From Paracoccaceae bacterium (GTDB lineage Bacteria > Pseudomonadota > Alphaproteobacteria > Rhodobacterales > Rhodobacteraceae): a stretch of DNA of 64,000 bases. The first letter of the stretch is position 1; every line of letters begins with the position of its first letter. Both the position numbers and the translations under genes were made by a program. Location of the stretch: assembly GCA_020832655.1 (NCBI GenBank), contig JAFIEF010000001.1:87284-151283 (forward strand). Reading direction: 5' to 3'. Below the pieces are notes generated by a model that was given only the letters and a program-made list of their open reading frames with translations, did no database searches and was not told the origin of the DNA. This document shows positions 17,151 through 26,586 of the stretch, in pieces.

Positions 17151-17567
17151 TTATGGGTCTGCGCCCTGGCCTGGATTTTGCGGCAGATGCGCGGTCAGTT
17201 GCCGGGGCAGGGGCCGGGGGCGGCCAGTATCGCCCAGACAAACCAGCGTGACCTGCGCATCAAACAGCAACCGACCCGCGCGCAGCACTTGCTGGGCCAG
17301 CACCAGCCGCGCACCGGAATGGCTGACAGGGGCGGTAGTGACATCAAGCAGATCATCGAAATGCGCTGGCGCCAGATAATCGGCCTCGACCCGGCGCACG
17401 GCAAAGACGCCTTCGCCCGCAGCCTTCATCGCCGCCTGATCAAACCCGAGAGCGCGCACCCATTCGCTGCGCGCGCGTTCGATGTATTTCAGGTAATTGG
17501 CGTAATAGACAATGCCCGCAAGGTCGGTGTCTTCGTAATAGACGCGGATCTGGTGGGTGTGGGTCAT
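17151..17567 (-). CDS. ybgC: Tol-Pal associated acyl-CoA thioesterase
   Basis: HQIRVYYEDTDLAGIVYYANYLKYIERARSEW hot-dog thioesterase motif; upstream of tolQ. Confidence 0.95.
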   Translation of the reverse strand: MTHTHQIRVYYEDTDLAGIVYYANYLKYIERARSEWVRALGFDQAAMKAAGEGVFAVRRVEADYLAPAHFDDLLDVTTAPVSHSGARLVLAQQVLRAGRLLFDAQVTLVCLGDTGRPRPLPRQLTAHLPQNPGQGADP

Positions 17568-19162
17568 TTGATGTTATCCGTCTTGATCAGCCCCGAAAAA
17601 CCCGCCACCGCAAGCAGGGTCAGCGCCCAGCCTGCGATGATATGCAGCCAAAGATAGAACCTTGCGAACTTGCCAAATGGCTGCGAGTCGTCGGGGATCC
17701 AGTAGCTTTGCATTTCCAGCGACAGGATCGGAAGCAAGCTGTCTGCGGAATAGATATACGGGTTGAACTGCGGATGGCCGCGTCCCTCGGGTGTTGTGTG
17801 AAAACACTCCAACCGGCCTTGGCCTTTCTGCCGCAACCCGCTTGTGGCTTCATTATCCCCAACCAGCCTAACCGTTTCGGTGGCATCAACGCCGCACAAG
17901 ACCCATTCTGCCGAGCGTTGGATTTGCGGCAGATTTGGCTTCACTTCGTCGCGCGCAAAGGCCGTTCCGAATATCCAGACACCCAACAGATATGGAACCA
18001 GCAACCAAGCGGCGGCCAGCAGCGGCCTGCGCCCGTAAGCGACTGTAGCACCAAGGATGCGATCCCAGAACGCGAACCAGTAGTAATCCTCGAACAGATA
18101 CGCGCGGCGCAACCGGTGGCGCCGCGCCTCGCGCTGCAGGCGCTCCTTTTCGATCAGGATTTTCGTGGCCTCCGCCCCATGCCCCATCTCGCGTAGCACC
18201 TTGGCGCAGTGCTCATAGGGGTCGGGCCAGAAATCTTGGCCGTAGTCTTGCGGTTTCTGTAGTGCCAGCCATGTCTTTCGGGTTTCTGCGTCTATAGGCG
18301 AGCGCCCCAGAAACGCGCCAAAGCGGCAACGCTTTAGAATCAATTCCGGCGGCCAGCAGGCCGGATCGTCATTGATGGCCCCCAAACTCGCGCCGGTCAG
18401 GTCAATGCAGCCGCTGACCTTGGCCCCTTCGCGCAAGAAAAATGTGCCAGTTATCTTGGCCCCGTCACAATTCAGTGCCTTGCTCTTGGCCTGCAACTCC
18501 GCGCCGGTGCAGGACAGATCGCCCCCCAGTCGCGCGCCCAGCAGCCGCACCTCGCCCGCGATTTTGGCATTGCTCAGAAAGACACTGCCCTCGGCCTGCA
18601 TCCCGTCACACCTCAGCGCATTGCCCTTGGCCTGCAACTCTGCGCCGGTGCAGGACAGTTCGCCGCCCAGCCGCGCGCCCAGCAGCTGCACCTCGCCCGC
18701 GATTTTGGCCTCGCGCAGAAAGACGCCGCCCTCGACCTGCAAGCGATCTGCCGTAATGGCGGCTTTTACGTCAGAGCTATGCAGAAACAGGTTTTTGAGC
18801 TTGGCAGAGCGCAGGATGATCGGGTCAGGGATATGGCAGAATACCAGCGCCAGATCATGGGGCAGGGTGGCGCCTTCGAAATCCAGCCCTTTGGTGCCTC
18901 CGCTGTTGTCGTCATCGCCAAGAATATACGCCCCCCAAACCCGCAACCCCGTTTCCGGCAGTCGGCAAGCGTCGCAGCCGCCAAGGGCAAGGAAGCGGAT
19001 GAAACTGGCGCGCAGGGTTACTTCCTCGGTGGCGCTGACCGGCACGCTGTTTGAGACCCTAAAGACCTTGCGATTGCCCGCTTGCAGCCATTTGACCAAC
19101 GCGTCTTCGGCAGGGGTGAAGGGCGCGAAGTCTTGCAGCGCTTTTCCCTGCCCGCCGCTCAT
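17564..19162 (-). CDS. Predicted beta-helix (pentapeptide-like/bactofilin-like repeat) protein with C-terminal transmembrane domain; function unknown
   Basis: Two 47-aa repeats ([47 protein letters not shown] / [47 protein letters not shown]), third degenerate unit, then hydrophobic helices ([46 protein letters not shown]). ATGA overlaps with lolD and ybgC. Confidence 0.8.
18455..18736 (-). repeat. Two tandem 141-bp coding repeats (47 aa each)
   Basis: Period measured directly, e.g. TTGGCCTGCAACTC at 18486 and 18627; 36/47 aa identical between units. Confidence 0.9.
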
Positions 19163-21130: not shown

Positions 21131-21278
21131 GCGGCAACGATCCTGTGGCGGGTCCGGGCGCACCCTCAACGGAATTGCCCCGCAAGGTCAAGGTCAAACC
21201 CTGTCACGCAAGGGTGAGAGGCCGGACAGGGGGTTGGGCATGCGGCAGGGTGGAAAGTGGGTTTGAGGGAGTGATTAG

Positions 21279-21488
21279 ATGCCCCAAAGTGGAATGGACT
21301 GGTGGGTCATTGCCGGGGTGATCATTGCAGCCATTGCAGCAATTATTGCATGGCGGCAGTTGCGCGGGGGTGCAGCCCGCACCAAGAACACAACCATCGA
21401 TGGCGACAACAACACCCAGACGGGCGGCAAGGGTCAGACTGAAAACACCATTGAACGGGGCAGAAACAACAAACAAGGCGGCGCATGA
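21279..21488 (+). CDS. Small single-TM protein with DGDNNTQ motif
   Basis: MPQSGMDWWVIAGVIIAAIAAIIAWRQLRGG..TTIDGDNNTQTGGKGQTENTIERGRNNKQGGA; 4-bp overlap with the next ORF. Confidence 0.65.
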   Translation: MPQSGMDWWVIAGVIIAAIAAIIAWRQLRGGAARTKNTTIDGDNNTQTGGKGQTENTIERGRNNKQGGA

Positions 21489-22612
21489 TCGGGCCTAAGA
21501 CAGATAACAGCATATCCGATTGCGACAATAATACGCAGGTCGGGCATAACGCTGGAACGATCACGGTTGGCCTGACATTCGAACAGCACGAAGCCGCAAT
21601 GGAACGCGCCATCGCCCGCAAGGAGGCAGACCTGGGGCGCGCCCATACCGCCGAAAAAGCCCTGATCCAGCGCGAACTGGATGAATTGCGCAGACGAATG
21701 CTGGATTTGGGCGCAGACTATCAAGCCCGCCTGACGGAATTGGCCGACACCAAGGCCATGCTGGCGCGCTACGACAACCAGATCGAACGCACGCGCTTTG
21801 ATCAAGCCATCGCCGCGCTGGACAATGATGATGAATCGCTTGCCGTCGAAATCCTGACCGAATTGGCACAGGCCAAGGCCCGCCGCCGCGAGGATGAGGC
21901 CATCGAAGAAGCGAAAATTCAATTCAAACTGGGCGAAATCGCTGAATCCCGCGTGGAATGGGCCAGCGCCGCGCAGCACTACACCCGCGCCGCAGAGCTG
22001 CACCCGAGCTATGACAACCTGTTCAAAGCGGGAGTATTGCTCCTTCATGCAGGGGAATATGACGCCGCCTTGGAAAAGAACAAGAAACTCGTCGCCCTGT
22101 CGCGCCACGAATATGGCCCCCGCGATGCCCAAACCACCACCGCACTGAACAATTACGCTGAATCGCTGCGCGCCGCGGGTAGCTACCCCGAGGCCGAGCC
22201 GCTTTACCGCGAGGCGCTGGCGATTTCCCGCGCGACACTGGGCGACCGCCACCCAGACGTGGCGAGCTATCTCAACAACCTCGCGGAGTTGCTGCACGCC
22301 ACGGGGCGCACTGAGCAGGCCGAGCCGCTTTGCCGCGAGGCGCTGGAGATTGGCCGCGAAACACTGGGCGGCCGCCACCCCGCTGTGGCGATCAGCCTCA
22401 ACAACCTCGCGCTGTTGTTGGACGCCACCGACCGCGCCGGTCAGGCAACGCCGCTATATCTTGAAGCGCTGGGCATTTTCCGCGCCAGCCTTGGCGATAA
22501 CCACCCCGATACCAAAACTATTGCCGGAAACACCCTGCGCCACCTGCGCCAACACGCCCCCGACCACCCCGATCTGGCACAATTACAGGCGGTCTATGGG
22601 GCTGCGCCCTAA
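21485..22612 (+). CDS. Coiled-coil/tetratricopeptide (kinesin-light-chain-type TPR) repeat protein with N-terminal DNNTQ motif
   Basis: ISDCDNNTQVGHNAGTITVG, charged coiled coil, then TPRs such as DVASYLNNLAELLHATGRTEQAEPLCREALEIGRETLGGRHP. Confidence 0.85.
   Translation: MIGPKTDNSISDCDNNTQVGHNAGTITVGLTFEQHEAAMERAIARKEADLGRAHTAEKALIQRELDELRRRMLDLGADYQARLTELADTKAMLARYDNQIERTRFDQAIAALDNDDESLAVEILTELAQAKARRREDEAIEEAKIQFKLGEIAESRVEWASAAQHYTRAAELHPSYDNLFKAGVLLLHAGEYDAALEKNKKLVALSRHEYGPRDAQTTTALNNYAESLRAAGSYPEAEPLYREALAISRATLGDRHPDVASYLNNLAELLHATGRTEQAEPLCREALEIGRETLGGRHPAVAISLNNLALLLDATDRAGQATPLYLEALGIFRASLGDNHPDTKTIAGNTLRHLRQHAPDHPDLAQLQAVYGAAP
22130..22507 (+). repeat. Three tandem 42-aa (126-bp) TPR units
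   Basis: Aligned units ending ..TLGDRHP / ..TLGGRHP / ..SLGDNHP at 42-aa period. Confidence 0.85.
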
Positions 22613-22625
22613 ATGCAGACGCCGC

Positions 22626-23189
22626 CTAGAACCGCAGCGCGTGGTGCAGGATGACCGGCACCACCAGGTCTTCCTCATCGATCAGATGGCGGTTCAAAAA
22701 CCCCCCGAACGCTTCCAGCCGCTGCAACATCGCGCCTGCGCTGTCGGTTGCATCCTTGCCCTGCGACAGGCGGCGCAGATGGGCGTTTGCGGCCGCGGTC
22801 AGCGCCTGCAATTCACCACCCAGCGCGTGGTGGTCGCCGTCCAGCAGCTCAAAGCCGTGGGCAAGGCGCTGTTCGGCGGCGGATAGCACCGGGAAGTAAT
22901 GCGCGTCTTCTATCTGGTGGTGGCCGTGCAGTTCGTTGATCAGGAACCCCCCGATCCGTGCGGTCATCTGGCCATGTGTGCGCGCGTCGCGCCCCTTGTC
23001 CAGAAAGCCGCGCGTGTCGTCCTGCCATTGCGCCAGCGCATGACGGAACATCAGATGCCGTTCCAGCCAGAACCGGGTCAGCCCGTCGAAATTCTTGTGG
23101 CTTTCCCACAGCGCGCGCGGGTATTGTTCCAGCAATATGCGCAACGCATCGGGCAGTTTTTCGCGCTGGTCAAGCGTGGTCTGGCGCAT
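22626..23189 (-). CDS. Hemerythrin HHE-domain protein
   Basis: DGLTRFWLERHLMFRHAL; GGFLINELHGHHQIEDAHYFPVLSAAE; ELLDGDHHALGGELQALT; FLNRHLIDEEDLVVPVILHH. Confidence 0.85.
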   Translation of the reverse strand: MRQTTLDQREKLPDALRILLEQYPRALWESHKNFDGLTRFWLERHLMFRHALAQWQDDTRGFLDKGRDARTHGQMTARIGGFLINELHGHHQIEDAHYFPVLSAAEQRLAHGFELLDGDHHALGGELQALTAAANAHLRRLSQGKDATDSAGAMLQRLEAFGGFLNRHLIDEEDLVVPVILHHALRF

Positions 23190-23243
23190 GGGGGCGTGCC
23201 TTTTTTCTGCGATGCACCCCAGCTAATTCGCTGACAGGCAGGG

Positions 23244-24392
23244 TCAATCGCTAAGTGCCTCGACGCTCTGGATCGTGGGCAGGTGGCGGGCGATTTCCAG
23301 CCAGCTTGCGCCCTCGTCGAAACTGCCGAAGACAGAGCCGCTATTGGTGCCGAAATACACCGCCGGACATGCCCCCTGATCGCTGGCCATCGCCTGACGC
23401 AGCACCGTGAAGAAGCAAGATTCCCGCGGCAGCCCGTCGCCCTGTTCGTGCCATGTGTCGCCCCCATCATTCGAATGCCACACAGCGGCGCGTCCATCCG
23501 GGGGAAAGCGCCCCTGCATGTCGCCATTTAGCGGAAACACCCATAGTTTCTGCGGGTCATGCGGGTGCAGTACGATTGGGAAGCCGAAGGTCGAGGGCAG
23601 CCCCTCTGTCACATCCTCCCAGGAGCGCCCGCCATCGCGGCTGCGCCAGACCCCGTGATGGTTCTGCTGATAGAGCAGATCACCCTTTGCGGCGCCGGCG
23701 CGCGCAAGGCTGTGCACGCAATGGCCGATCTCGCCCCCTGACGGGGCTGCCGGATGGTGGTGATGCGCGCAGGCTTCCGCATTGGACAGCCGGTTGCGCC
23801 GGTGCCAGGTGGCGCCGCCATCCTCGGTGGCAAAGACGCCTGACGCGGAAATGCCCAGCCACAGCTTGTCGGGAGTGTCGGGGTCCGAGGCGATTGAATG
23901 CAGGATCAGCCCTGCCGCGCCGGGTTGCCATTGAGGGCGTGACGGATGCGCGCCCAACCCCTCGACCCGCGCGAAGCTGGCACCATCATCGTGGCTTTCC
24001 AGCAGATCGGCAGGTTTGGTGCCTGCATAAAGCCGATCATTCACCCGGTGCAGCGACCAGATCTGCGACAGATCCGCTTCAAAGGGAAGATCGCTTTTCT
24101 GCCAGCCAATCATCGCGGCGAATTCGGCGTCCTGTGCGGCCCATTCATCCATCTGGCCGGGTGACAGACGGGTGAGCGTCCAGCTTTCCCCGCCATCGTG
24201 CGAATGCCAGACCCCGGCGCCGAACCACTCTCCGCCACCCCCGGCCCACAGCTTTGACGTACCAGGTTCGCCGATGACATGATTTATGGGCCAGCCATCG
24301 CAATGCGGACCGCTGACCGTGAAGCTGCCATCGGCCTGCTGGAGCAGAATGAAGGTTCCCTTGGTGGTTCCGATCAAGACCTTGCGCGCCAT
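23244..24392 (-). CDS. BNR/Asp-box repeat (sialidase/VPS10-like beta-propeller) protein
   Basis: Repeated S-x-D-x-G-x-x-W motifs: SHDGGESWT, TEDGGATWH, SRDGGRSWED, SNDGGDTWHE, SFDEGASW. Confidence 0.85.
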   Translation of the reverse strand: MARKVLIGTTKGTFILLQQADGSFTVSGPHCDGWPINHVIGEPGTSKLWAGGGGEWFGAGVWHSHDGGESWTLTRLSPGQMDEWAAQDAEFAAMIGWQKSDLPFEADLSQIWSLHRVNDRLYAGTKPADLLESHDDGASFARVEGLGAHPSRPQWQPGAAGLILHSIASDPDTPDKLWLGISASGVFATEDGGATWHRRNRLSNAEACAHHHHPAAPSGGEIGHCVHSLARAGAAKGDLLYQQNHHGVWRSRDGGRSWEDVTEGLPSTFGFPIVLHPHDPQKLWVFPLNGDMQGRFPPDGRAAVWHSNDGGDTWHEQGDGLPRESCFFTVLRQAMASDQGACPAVYFGTNSGSVFGSFDEGASWLEIARHLPTIQSVEALSD

Positions 24393-24478
24393 GACTGCCT
24401 CCTGCATCTGATAGGGCAGGATGTCGCAGCCAGCCCTGCCGCGTCAAGCGTCGTGGTCACGCCTCGCGTCTGCGCGGG

Positions 24479-25999: not shown

Positions 26000-26299
26000 T
26001 CAGAATCCATGAAACAGCATGTCGAGCGCGGATGTAATGAGATCAAACTGAGCCGACAGATCCCCTGTTGGCGTTTTCAGAATGCTTGCAGGCACAGCGG
26101 CGATATATTGCGTCATCATCACATGCGCCGCCCCGTCGATTTCGAACACAGGATTCAGGCGGCTTGCGGCGGCTGGCGCATCGCCTTGCGGCAGAAGCGG
26201 CACCACTGCGCGCACATTCAGCACTTCCAGCAGGTCGCTTTGCACGTCCAGCAGAAAGTCCCCGCCGGACGGATTCAGGAACAGCTCATATTGCGCCAT
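26000..26299 (-). CDS. ccdB: CcdB-family toxin
   Basis: QYELFLNPSGGDFLLDVQSDLLEVLNVRAVVPLLP...HVMMTQYIAAVPASILKTPTGDLSAQFDLITSALDMLFHGF. Confidence 0.88.
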   Translation of the reverse strand: MAQYELFLNPSGGDFLLDVQSDLLEVLNVRAVVPLLPQGDAPAAASRLNPVFEIDGAAHVMMTQYIAAVPASILKTPTGDLSAQFDLITSALDMLFHGF

Positions 26300-26520
26300 C
26301 AGAACCGCCGATACTGCGCCAATGGCAGGCCGTGCTCCTTCACCCAGTCATTCGAGCTTTGCAGCGCGGCGCGGTTGTCTTCCAGCCATTGCGCGGCCTT
26401 GCGCGCACGCACGGCCTCGCGCAGGCTGGCCTCGAATGTGGCAGACAGATTGATGCCAAGACCGCGCGCTTCATCCAGCAGGGCGGGATCTACGGTCAGA
26501 TTGGTTGCGCGCTTGGTCAT
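26299..26520 (-). CDS. ccdA: CcdA-family antitoxin
   Basis: MTKRATNLTVDPALLDEARGLGINLSATFEASLREAVRARKAAQWLEDNRAALQSSNDWVKEHGLPLAQYRRF; directly precedes ccdB. Confidence 0.88.
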   Translation of the reverse strand: MTKRATNLTVDPALLDEARGLGINLSATFEASLREAVRARKAAQWLEDNRAALQSSNDWVKEHGLPLAQYRRF

Positions 26521-26586
26521 CCGGGCCTCCTGCGGGTGGATCATGCGCATTGATAGCACATATCGACCATGCTGCCCAAGTCCCCG

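Follow-up and report, generated by a model that had tools for sequence, protein, structure and literature searches.

The window, i.e., the whole stretch of 64,000 nucleotides of a Paracoccaceae genome (GCA_020832655.1) that was analyzed, carries a two-gene cassette between lolC and proS. The first gene encodes a 69-aa membrane anchor, P0001, and the second a 375-aa coiled-coil/TPR protein, P0002 (Table 1). The sequence-only reading of this DNA had described a 69-aa single-TM ORF and a 375-aa ORF with a 4-bp overlap, and both were recovered where it had placed them, the overlap being 4 nt (ATGA). The three 42-aa kinesin-light-chain (KLC)-type TPRs that it had claimed were located in P0002 both by Pfam and as a direct repeat.

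Table 1. Features of the cassette and its leader in the window (positions are those of the whole stretch).
Feature	Position	Strand	Basis or remark
Leader, lolC to cassette	21170..21278	+	Alignment with L021, L022, L024
Gene P0001, 69-aa membrane anchor	21279..21488	+	TM helix, basic stretch, polar tail; SD-like GAGGGAG upstream
TM helix of P0001, residues 6-29, then RQLRGGAARTK	21294..21365	+	AF2 model; sequence
Motif copy r1, RTKNTTIDGDNNTQTG, in P0001 tail	21378..21425	+	
Motif copy r2, QTENTIERGRNNKQGG	21435..21482	+	Pseudo-repeat of r1 (p = 0.003)
Gene P0002, 375-aa coiled-coil/TPR protein	21485..22612	+	ATGA overlap with P0001 gene
Motif copy r0, KTDNSISDCDNNTQVGHNAGT, P0002 N-terminus	21497..21559	+	Disordered in monomer model
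Coiled-coil part, P0002 residues 25-105	21557..21799	+	Related to other-genus split proteins, not to same-genus fused ones
TPR body, P0002 residues 141-357	21905..22555	+	Related to own genus's fused proteins; AF2 pLDDT > 90
Three 42-residue KLC-type TPRs, P0002 residues 217-342	22133..22510	+	Pfam; 126-nt direct repeat

P0002 matched TPR_12 (5.5e-44) and TPR_10 (8e-30) in Pfam, and only TPRs and a coiled coil were detected in Pfam and in the AF2 model. Its best sequence match in the PDB was KLC1 (3e-32), and in the fold comparison KLC1 and KLC2 ranked first, with the bacterial BtubC lower. The monomer model had a mean pLDDT of 89.7, with values below 50 for residues 1-24 and helices from residue 32 onwards. 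For P0001, the AF2 model, of modest confidence, contained one helix (residues 6-29) with the remainder unstructured, and the polar tail is predicted to be cytoplasmic from the positive-inside rule. Pfam and other family searches gave no match for P0001 above the cut-off, and no homologue was detectable in 249 genomes of the family; matches in G192 and G267 were spurious, being TM stretches of unrelated proteins. The Rfam search yielded no match at the gathering threshold, and the promoter scan one weak site against 0.6 expected.

The proposed insertion of the cassette between lolC and proS proved right but incomplete, as a hemerythrin gene and a gene with BNR/sortilin-like repeats (22626-24407, minus strand) also lie between the cassette and proS. 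The hemerythrin gene accompanies the fused homologue described below in three relatives. Further on, a CcdA/CcdB toxin-antitoxin pair (26003-26559, minus strand; Pfam 4e-27 and 2e-27) is located between proS and an esterase gene. A 532-aa protein is encoded between lolD and a 4HBT thioesterase gene (17564-19162, minus strand); it has weak pentapeptide-repeat similarity and C-terminal hydrophobic stretches, with no family above the cut-off in Pfam and other searches. Among the 29 genera examined, the lolC-proS interval measured 44-179 bp in five and 650-1366 bp, with other genes inside, in six. The near-empty sites come from five other genera of the family, and no empty site can be defined within the genus of the window, since in its other members examined the gene after lolC is not proS. 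Besides, in three other genera (L135, L141, L145) the interval holds related TM proteins of ~180-195 aa, indicating that it accepts different cargo.

The sequence-only reading had also pointed to a polar motif common to both proteins, which was confirmed. TTIDGDNNTQTGG occurs in the tail of P0001 and SISDCDNNTQVGHNAGTITVG at the start of P0002, and the Gly/Asn-rich match between tail and N-terminus (RTKNTTIDGDNNTQTG / KTDNSISDCDNNTQVG) reached a local score of 48 (p = 4.5e-4 in 20,000 shuffles), a p-value that is post hoc since the motif itself had drawn attention to the pair. The P0001 tail consists of two pseudo-repeats (p = 0.003), a feature absent from the sequence-only reading, so that the membrane protein has two copies and the TPR protein one. 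The two sides encode DNNTQ with different codons (GAC AAC AAC ACC CAG and GAC AAT AAT ACG CAG), and thus the match is not a recent DNA copy. A strict DNA pattern for GDNNTQxG was found only in the window's own genome among the 249 genomes. What is conserved in other genomes is the two-gene layout, and not the DNNTQ sequence.

Further split pairs were detected in four genomes, two of another genus (G265 and G671) and two of another family (G332 and G691). In G265 (Rhodobacteraceae bacterium isolate OB9), a 69-aa TM protein, MWESIS...GGVIVEGDVKGNVTT, overlaps (ATGA) the gene of a soluble TPR protein with GAVIADKVDGNVTIG; the end of the small protein reads GGVIVEGDVKGNVTTNPSRKRKK and the start of the TPR protein MRANNTASKGAVIADKVDGNVTIGLTFEQH. 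Its congener G671 has the same layout. There, the small TM ORF, which is on the reverse strand of L055 just upstream of base 1844, is interrupted by an in-frame TAG that follows the TM helix, and the motif beyond it is conserved; an assembly error, a pseudogene or readthrough could account for this. In G332, a two-TM protein ending in GGVVINGDVAGNVGGSASPDPAPKKR lies upstream of a TPR protein with GGVVVIGNVGGSVGLTP, the motifs of the pair being GGVVINGDVAGNVGG (small protein) and GGVVVIGNVGGSVG (TPR protein), and the layout is repeated in its congener G691. The TPR protein of G691 (L070, from ~base 1853) has an apparent extra hydrophobic N-terminus, MSRLATLLIGAALVSLVPAVVIAA, before the motif, which seems to imply a different topology unless a later start is used. 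The motif matched within the pair in both G265 (p = 1.3e-3) and G332 (p = 5e-5) by shuffling, and since these pairs were found through the TPR protein, they give independent support for the motif match. The small ORFs are under purifying selection (dN/dS of 0.15 for G265/G671 and 0.38 for G332/G691), which shows that they are real genes.

The motifs differ between pairs. The window motif scored 17-21 against those of other pairs, compared to 48 within its own, and the motifs of G265 and G332 cross-match while that of the window does not, pointing to at least two motif classes. The small-protein tail of G265 scored 59 against the TPR N-terminus of G332 and 38 against its own partner, thus partner specificity is seen only for the window pair versus the others.

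The split pairs belong to a wider family, which we define here by a conserved TPR body carrying a fused TM, a split TM plus motif, or a helix-turn-helix (HTH) N-terminus; all of these were found. Members occur in 13 other genomes of the sample of 249, which holds nearly always one genome per genus, and most of them are TM fusions, some located beside mraY, nusB or proS. TM-TPR fusions directly follow mraY in four genera (L059, L061, L064 and L042, the last a remnant), so that this position in the cluster of division and cell-wall genes recurs. In G113 (L058, 5933-7426), an N-terminal XRE-type HTH (PF13560, 3e-6) replaces the membrane anchor, a variant through which the coiled-coil/TPR architecture may be brought to DNA as well. 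The fusions in G060 and G257 have a Gly/Asn-rich linker between the TM and the coiled coil, and G332, besides its split pair, has a paralogue (L075) that is a TM-TPR fusion with the linker GGNNVSVGNGGVGAGGSMTGNSI. The motif is thus not exclusive to split forms.

Fused counterparts also occupy the same chromosomal sites as split pairs. A strong homologue of P0002 adjoins proS in four of the 35 other members of the window's genus (G012, G018, G021 and G025); it is also beside lolC in three of them, lolC being ~29 kb away in G025. All four homologues are single genes with the order TM helix, linker, coiled coil and TPR, and are devoid of the DNNTQ motif, so that fused and split forms are found at the same site within one genus. 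The non-coding leader upstream of the gene is common to the window and the fused relatives, including the conserved element GTGGGTTTGAGGG (21257-21269), which corresponds to GTGGATTTGAGGG in the latter. In the genus of G265, both the split form of G265 and the fused form of G667 are found downstream of the same Dyp-peroxidase gene. In G721, of the family of G332, the TM domain of the small G332 protein (45% identity, E = 4.7e-7) is fused directly to a coiled coil and TPRs, and the motif is missing from this fusion. Fusion in one species of chains that are separate in another is a classical sign of joint action.

The two parts of P0002 have different relatives. Compared with the fused proteins of its own genus, P0002 was only 23-32% identical over residues 25-100 and 61-75% over residues 216-375, while compared with the split proteins of G265 and G671 these values were 42-65% over residues 25-100 and 39-55% over the TPR array. 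G265 exhibited the mirror pattern of N-terminal and TPR identity in its own genus. AU tests on trees of 18 sequences and short segments rejected both a forced grouping of the P0002 N-terminal module with its own genus (p = 8e-7) and a forced grouping of the TPR body with the split proteins (p = 1.6e-5). The identity pattern and the AU tests indicate that the small TM gene, the motif and the first coiled coil behave as one exchangeable module. This module appears to have taken the place of the TM-coiled-coil start in the resident gene, from the start codon to ~21800, and as the leader element at 21257-21269 is kept in the fused relatives, the left edge of the swap lies beside the start codon. 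A long-standing polymorphism of two starts would give the same trees, which give no direction of exchange.

Based on these observations, we consider it fairly probable that the two proteins make up the fused membrane scaffold in non-covalent form, with the matched motifs as the joint. P0001 would span the inner membrane and expose its polar tail to the cytoplasm, where its two motif repeats would pair with the N-terminal motif of P0002, probably as stacked beta-strands, as the composition and the analogy with other systems suggest. This pairing would tether the coiled-coil/TPR body to the membrane in the same way as the covalent TM fusion does in the relatives, and the TPR groove would bind a partner that may so be recruited to, or clustered at, the membrane. 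The N-terminus of P0002 would then be an exchangeable adaptor slot, which can be filled by a fused TM, by a split TM plus motif, or by an HTH. The relatives with both halves in one protein suggest that the tags replace the direct link and thus act as a detachable joint. Co-assembly through the shared motif, as put forward by the sequence-only reading, is supported by the fused TM-TPR relatives at the site, the recurrence of matched pairs, the G721 fusion, and the exchange of the motif-bearing N-terminus onto resident TPR bodies. On the other hand, the motif is a short, low-complexity sequence that the monomer models show as disordered, Gly/Asn-rich linkers are also present in fused members, the G265 tail matches the G332 protein better than its own partner, P0001 is without a detectable homologue in the 249 family genomes, and the small ORF of G671 contains an in-frame TAG.

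The matched motifs could, alternatively, act by amyloid-like templating, in which the N-terminal motif of a TPR sensor, once a ligand has caused clustering, seeds the motifs of the P0001 tail, and the seeded P0001 forms assemblies in the membrane that harm the cell or arrest it, i.e., a BASS/HET-S-type device without an NLR. BASS pairs, which combine a BELL effector with an NLR, were reportedly first described by Dyrka et al. in 2020. The layout of the window pair is that of published BASS pairs, in which the genes are adjacent or overlap and the motif is located C-terminally in the small TM protein and N-terminally in the receptor (PMC7889193), one of the partners bearing repeats; as in those pairs, the motif differs between lineages and matches inside a pair. 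A membrane protein with two pseudo-repeats facing a receptor with a single motif copy also fits, as repeated motifs on the effector side have been reported for HET-S-type proteins (PMC7889193) and for BASS4 (PMC8086366), and comparable motif pairs have previously been found by local alignment of neighboring genes. However, Pfam detected no NTPase or NLR domain (NACHT or NB-ARC) in P0002, P0001 is modeled as a single helix and not as a BELL-type bundle, with no match in Pfam or PADLOC, and the two BASS3-type peptides compared, taken from PMC8086366, were not significantly similar to the window motifs (p 0.17-0.94). The host, moreover, is neither actinobacterial nor cyanobacterial, and the existence here of permanently fused TM-TPR relatives favors a tether that acts constitutively over a killer that has to be induced. 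We therefore regard templating as possible but rather unlikely. An NLR-free amyloid-type pair in Alphaproteobacteria, with a TPR sensor lacking an NTPase, a 69-aa single-helix membrane effector and a new motif class, is accordingly a tentative proposal; if true, it would be a candidate answer to the question of whether signaling amyloids occur in NLR-independent bacterial pathways (PMC7889193).

The motif match might also be a by-product without a binding role, if a fused TM-linker-TPR gene whose Gly/Asn linker was repetitive split into two and each half retained part of that linker. Linkers of this kind are indeed present between the TM and the coiled coil in the fused proteins of G060, G257 and L075. 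Nevertheless, the motif has been kept at the amino acid level while its codons changed synonymously, and purifying selection acts on the small ORFs. In addition, the N-terminal modules of split proteins from two genera cluster together despite being attached to different TPR bodies, and the independent split pairs all retain the match on both sides. We consider such an origin without function quite improbable.

A dedicated anti-phage two-gene system, the defense role suggested by the sequence-only reading, is very unlikely: the patchy distribution (13 other genera of 248 in the family), the exchangeable N-terminal modules as in conflict systems (PMC7159879) and the CcdA/CcdB pair ~3.4 kb from the cassette speak for it, but the loci are housekeeping ones throughout (lolC-proS, mraY, nusB, hisH and Dyp peroxidase) with no sign of a defense island, and PADLOC returned only a generic TPR model for the cassette, the LolD matches fitting generic ATPase homology. 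The ten neighboring window genes gave no convincing PADLOC match either. Relatives of P0001, P0002 or the G332 proteins were not found on plasmids and viral contigs, and among phage records P0002 matched only TPR/ankyrin proteins of Wolbachia phage WO. The suggestion of a defense system is thus unsupported.

With respect to known systems, the nearest conceptual relatives of the pair are the EAD and EACC1 systems, with which it shares the logic of coupling by fusion or by adaptors. EADs couple proteins through homotypic adaptor copies encoded on adjacent genes, which are closest to each other, and in the EACC1 system a 5' gene with a single TM helix precedes a 3' partner usually carrying a caspase domain (PMC7159879). 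Such closeness within the pair holds for the window (48 versus 17-21) but not for G265 versus G332. EADs are folded alpha or alpha+beta domains, in contrast to the Gly/Asn-rich tails found here, and Pfam detected no caspase or cyclase domain in P0002. The Pfam matches included neither EACC1 nor an EAD family, EACC1 being absent up to E = 10 in a library in which the presence of its model is unconfirmed. The pair also resembles KLC-type TPR proteins, including BtubC, in its 42-residue TPRs and its KLC-like sequence and fold, but differs from them by the N-terminal adaptor slot and the membrane anchor, and no tubulin context was seen.

The close relatives described here provide one protein in natural forms that either have or lack a covalent link, at the same chromosomal sites. 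If the motifs replace that link, the pair would be a small, exchangeable two-chain tether in which the matching of partners is testable. A membrane tether of this type would give bacteria a means of switching a scaffold between the membrane and perhaps, where an HTH is present, DNA. It would also mean that motif-coupled gene pairs are not confined to NLR and VMAP systems but include a plain TPR scaffold.
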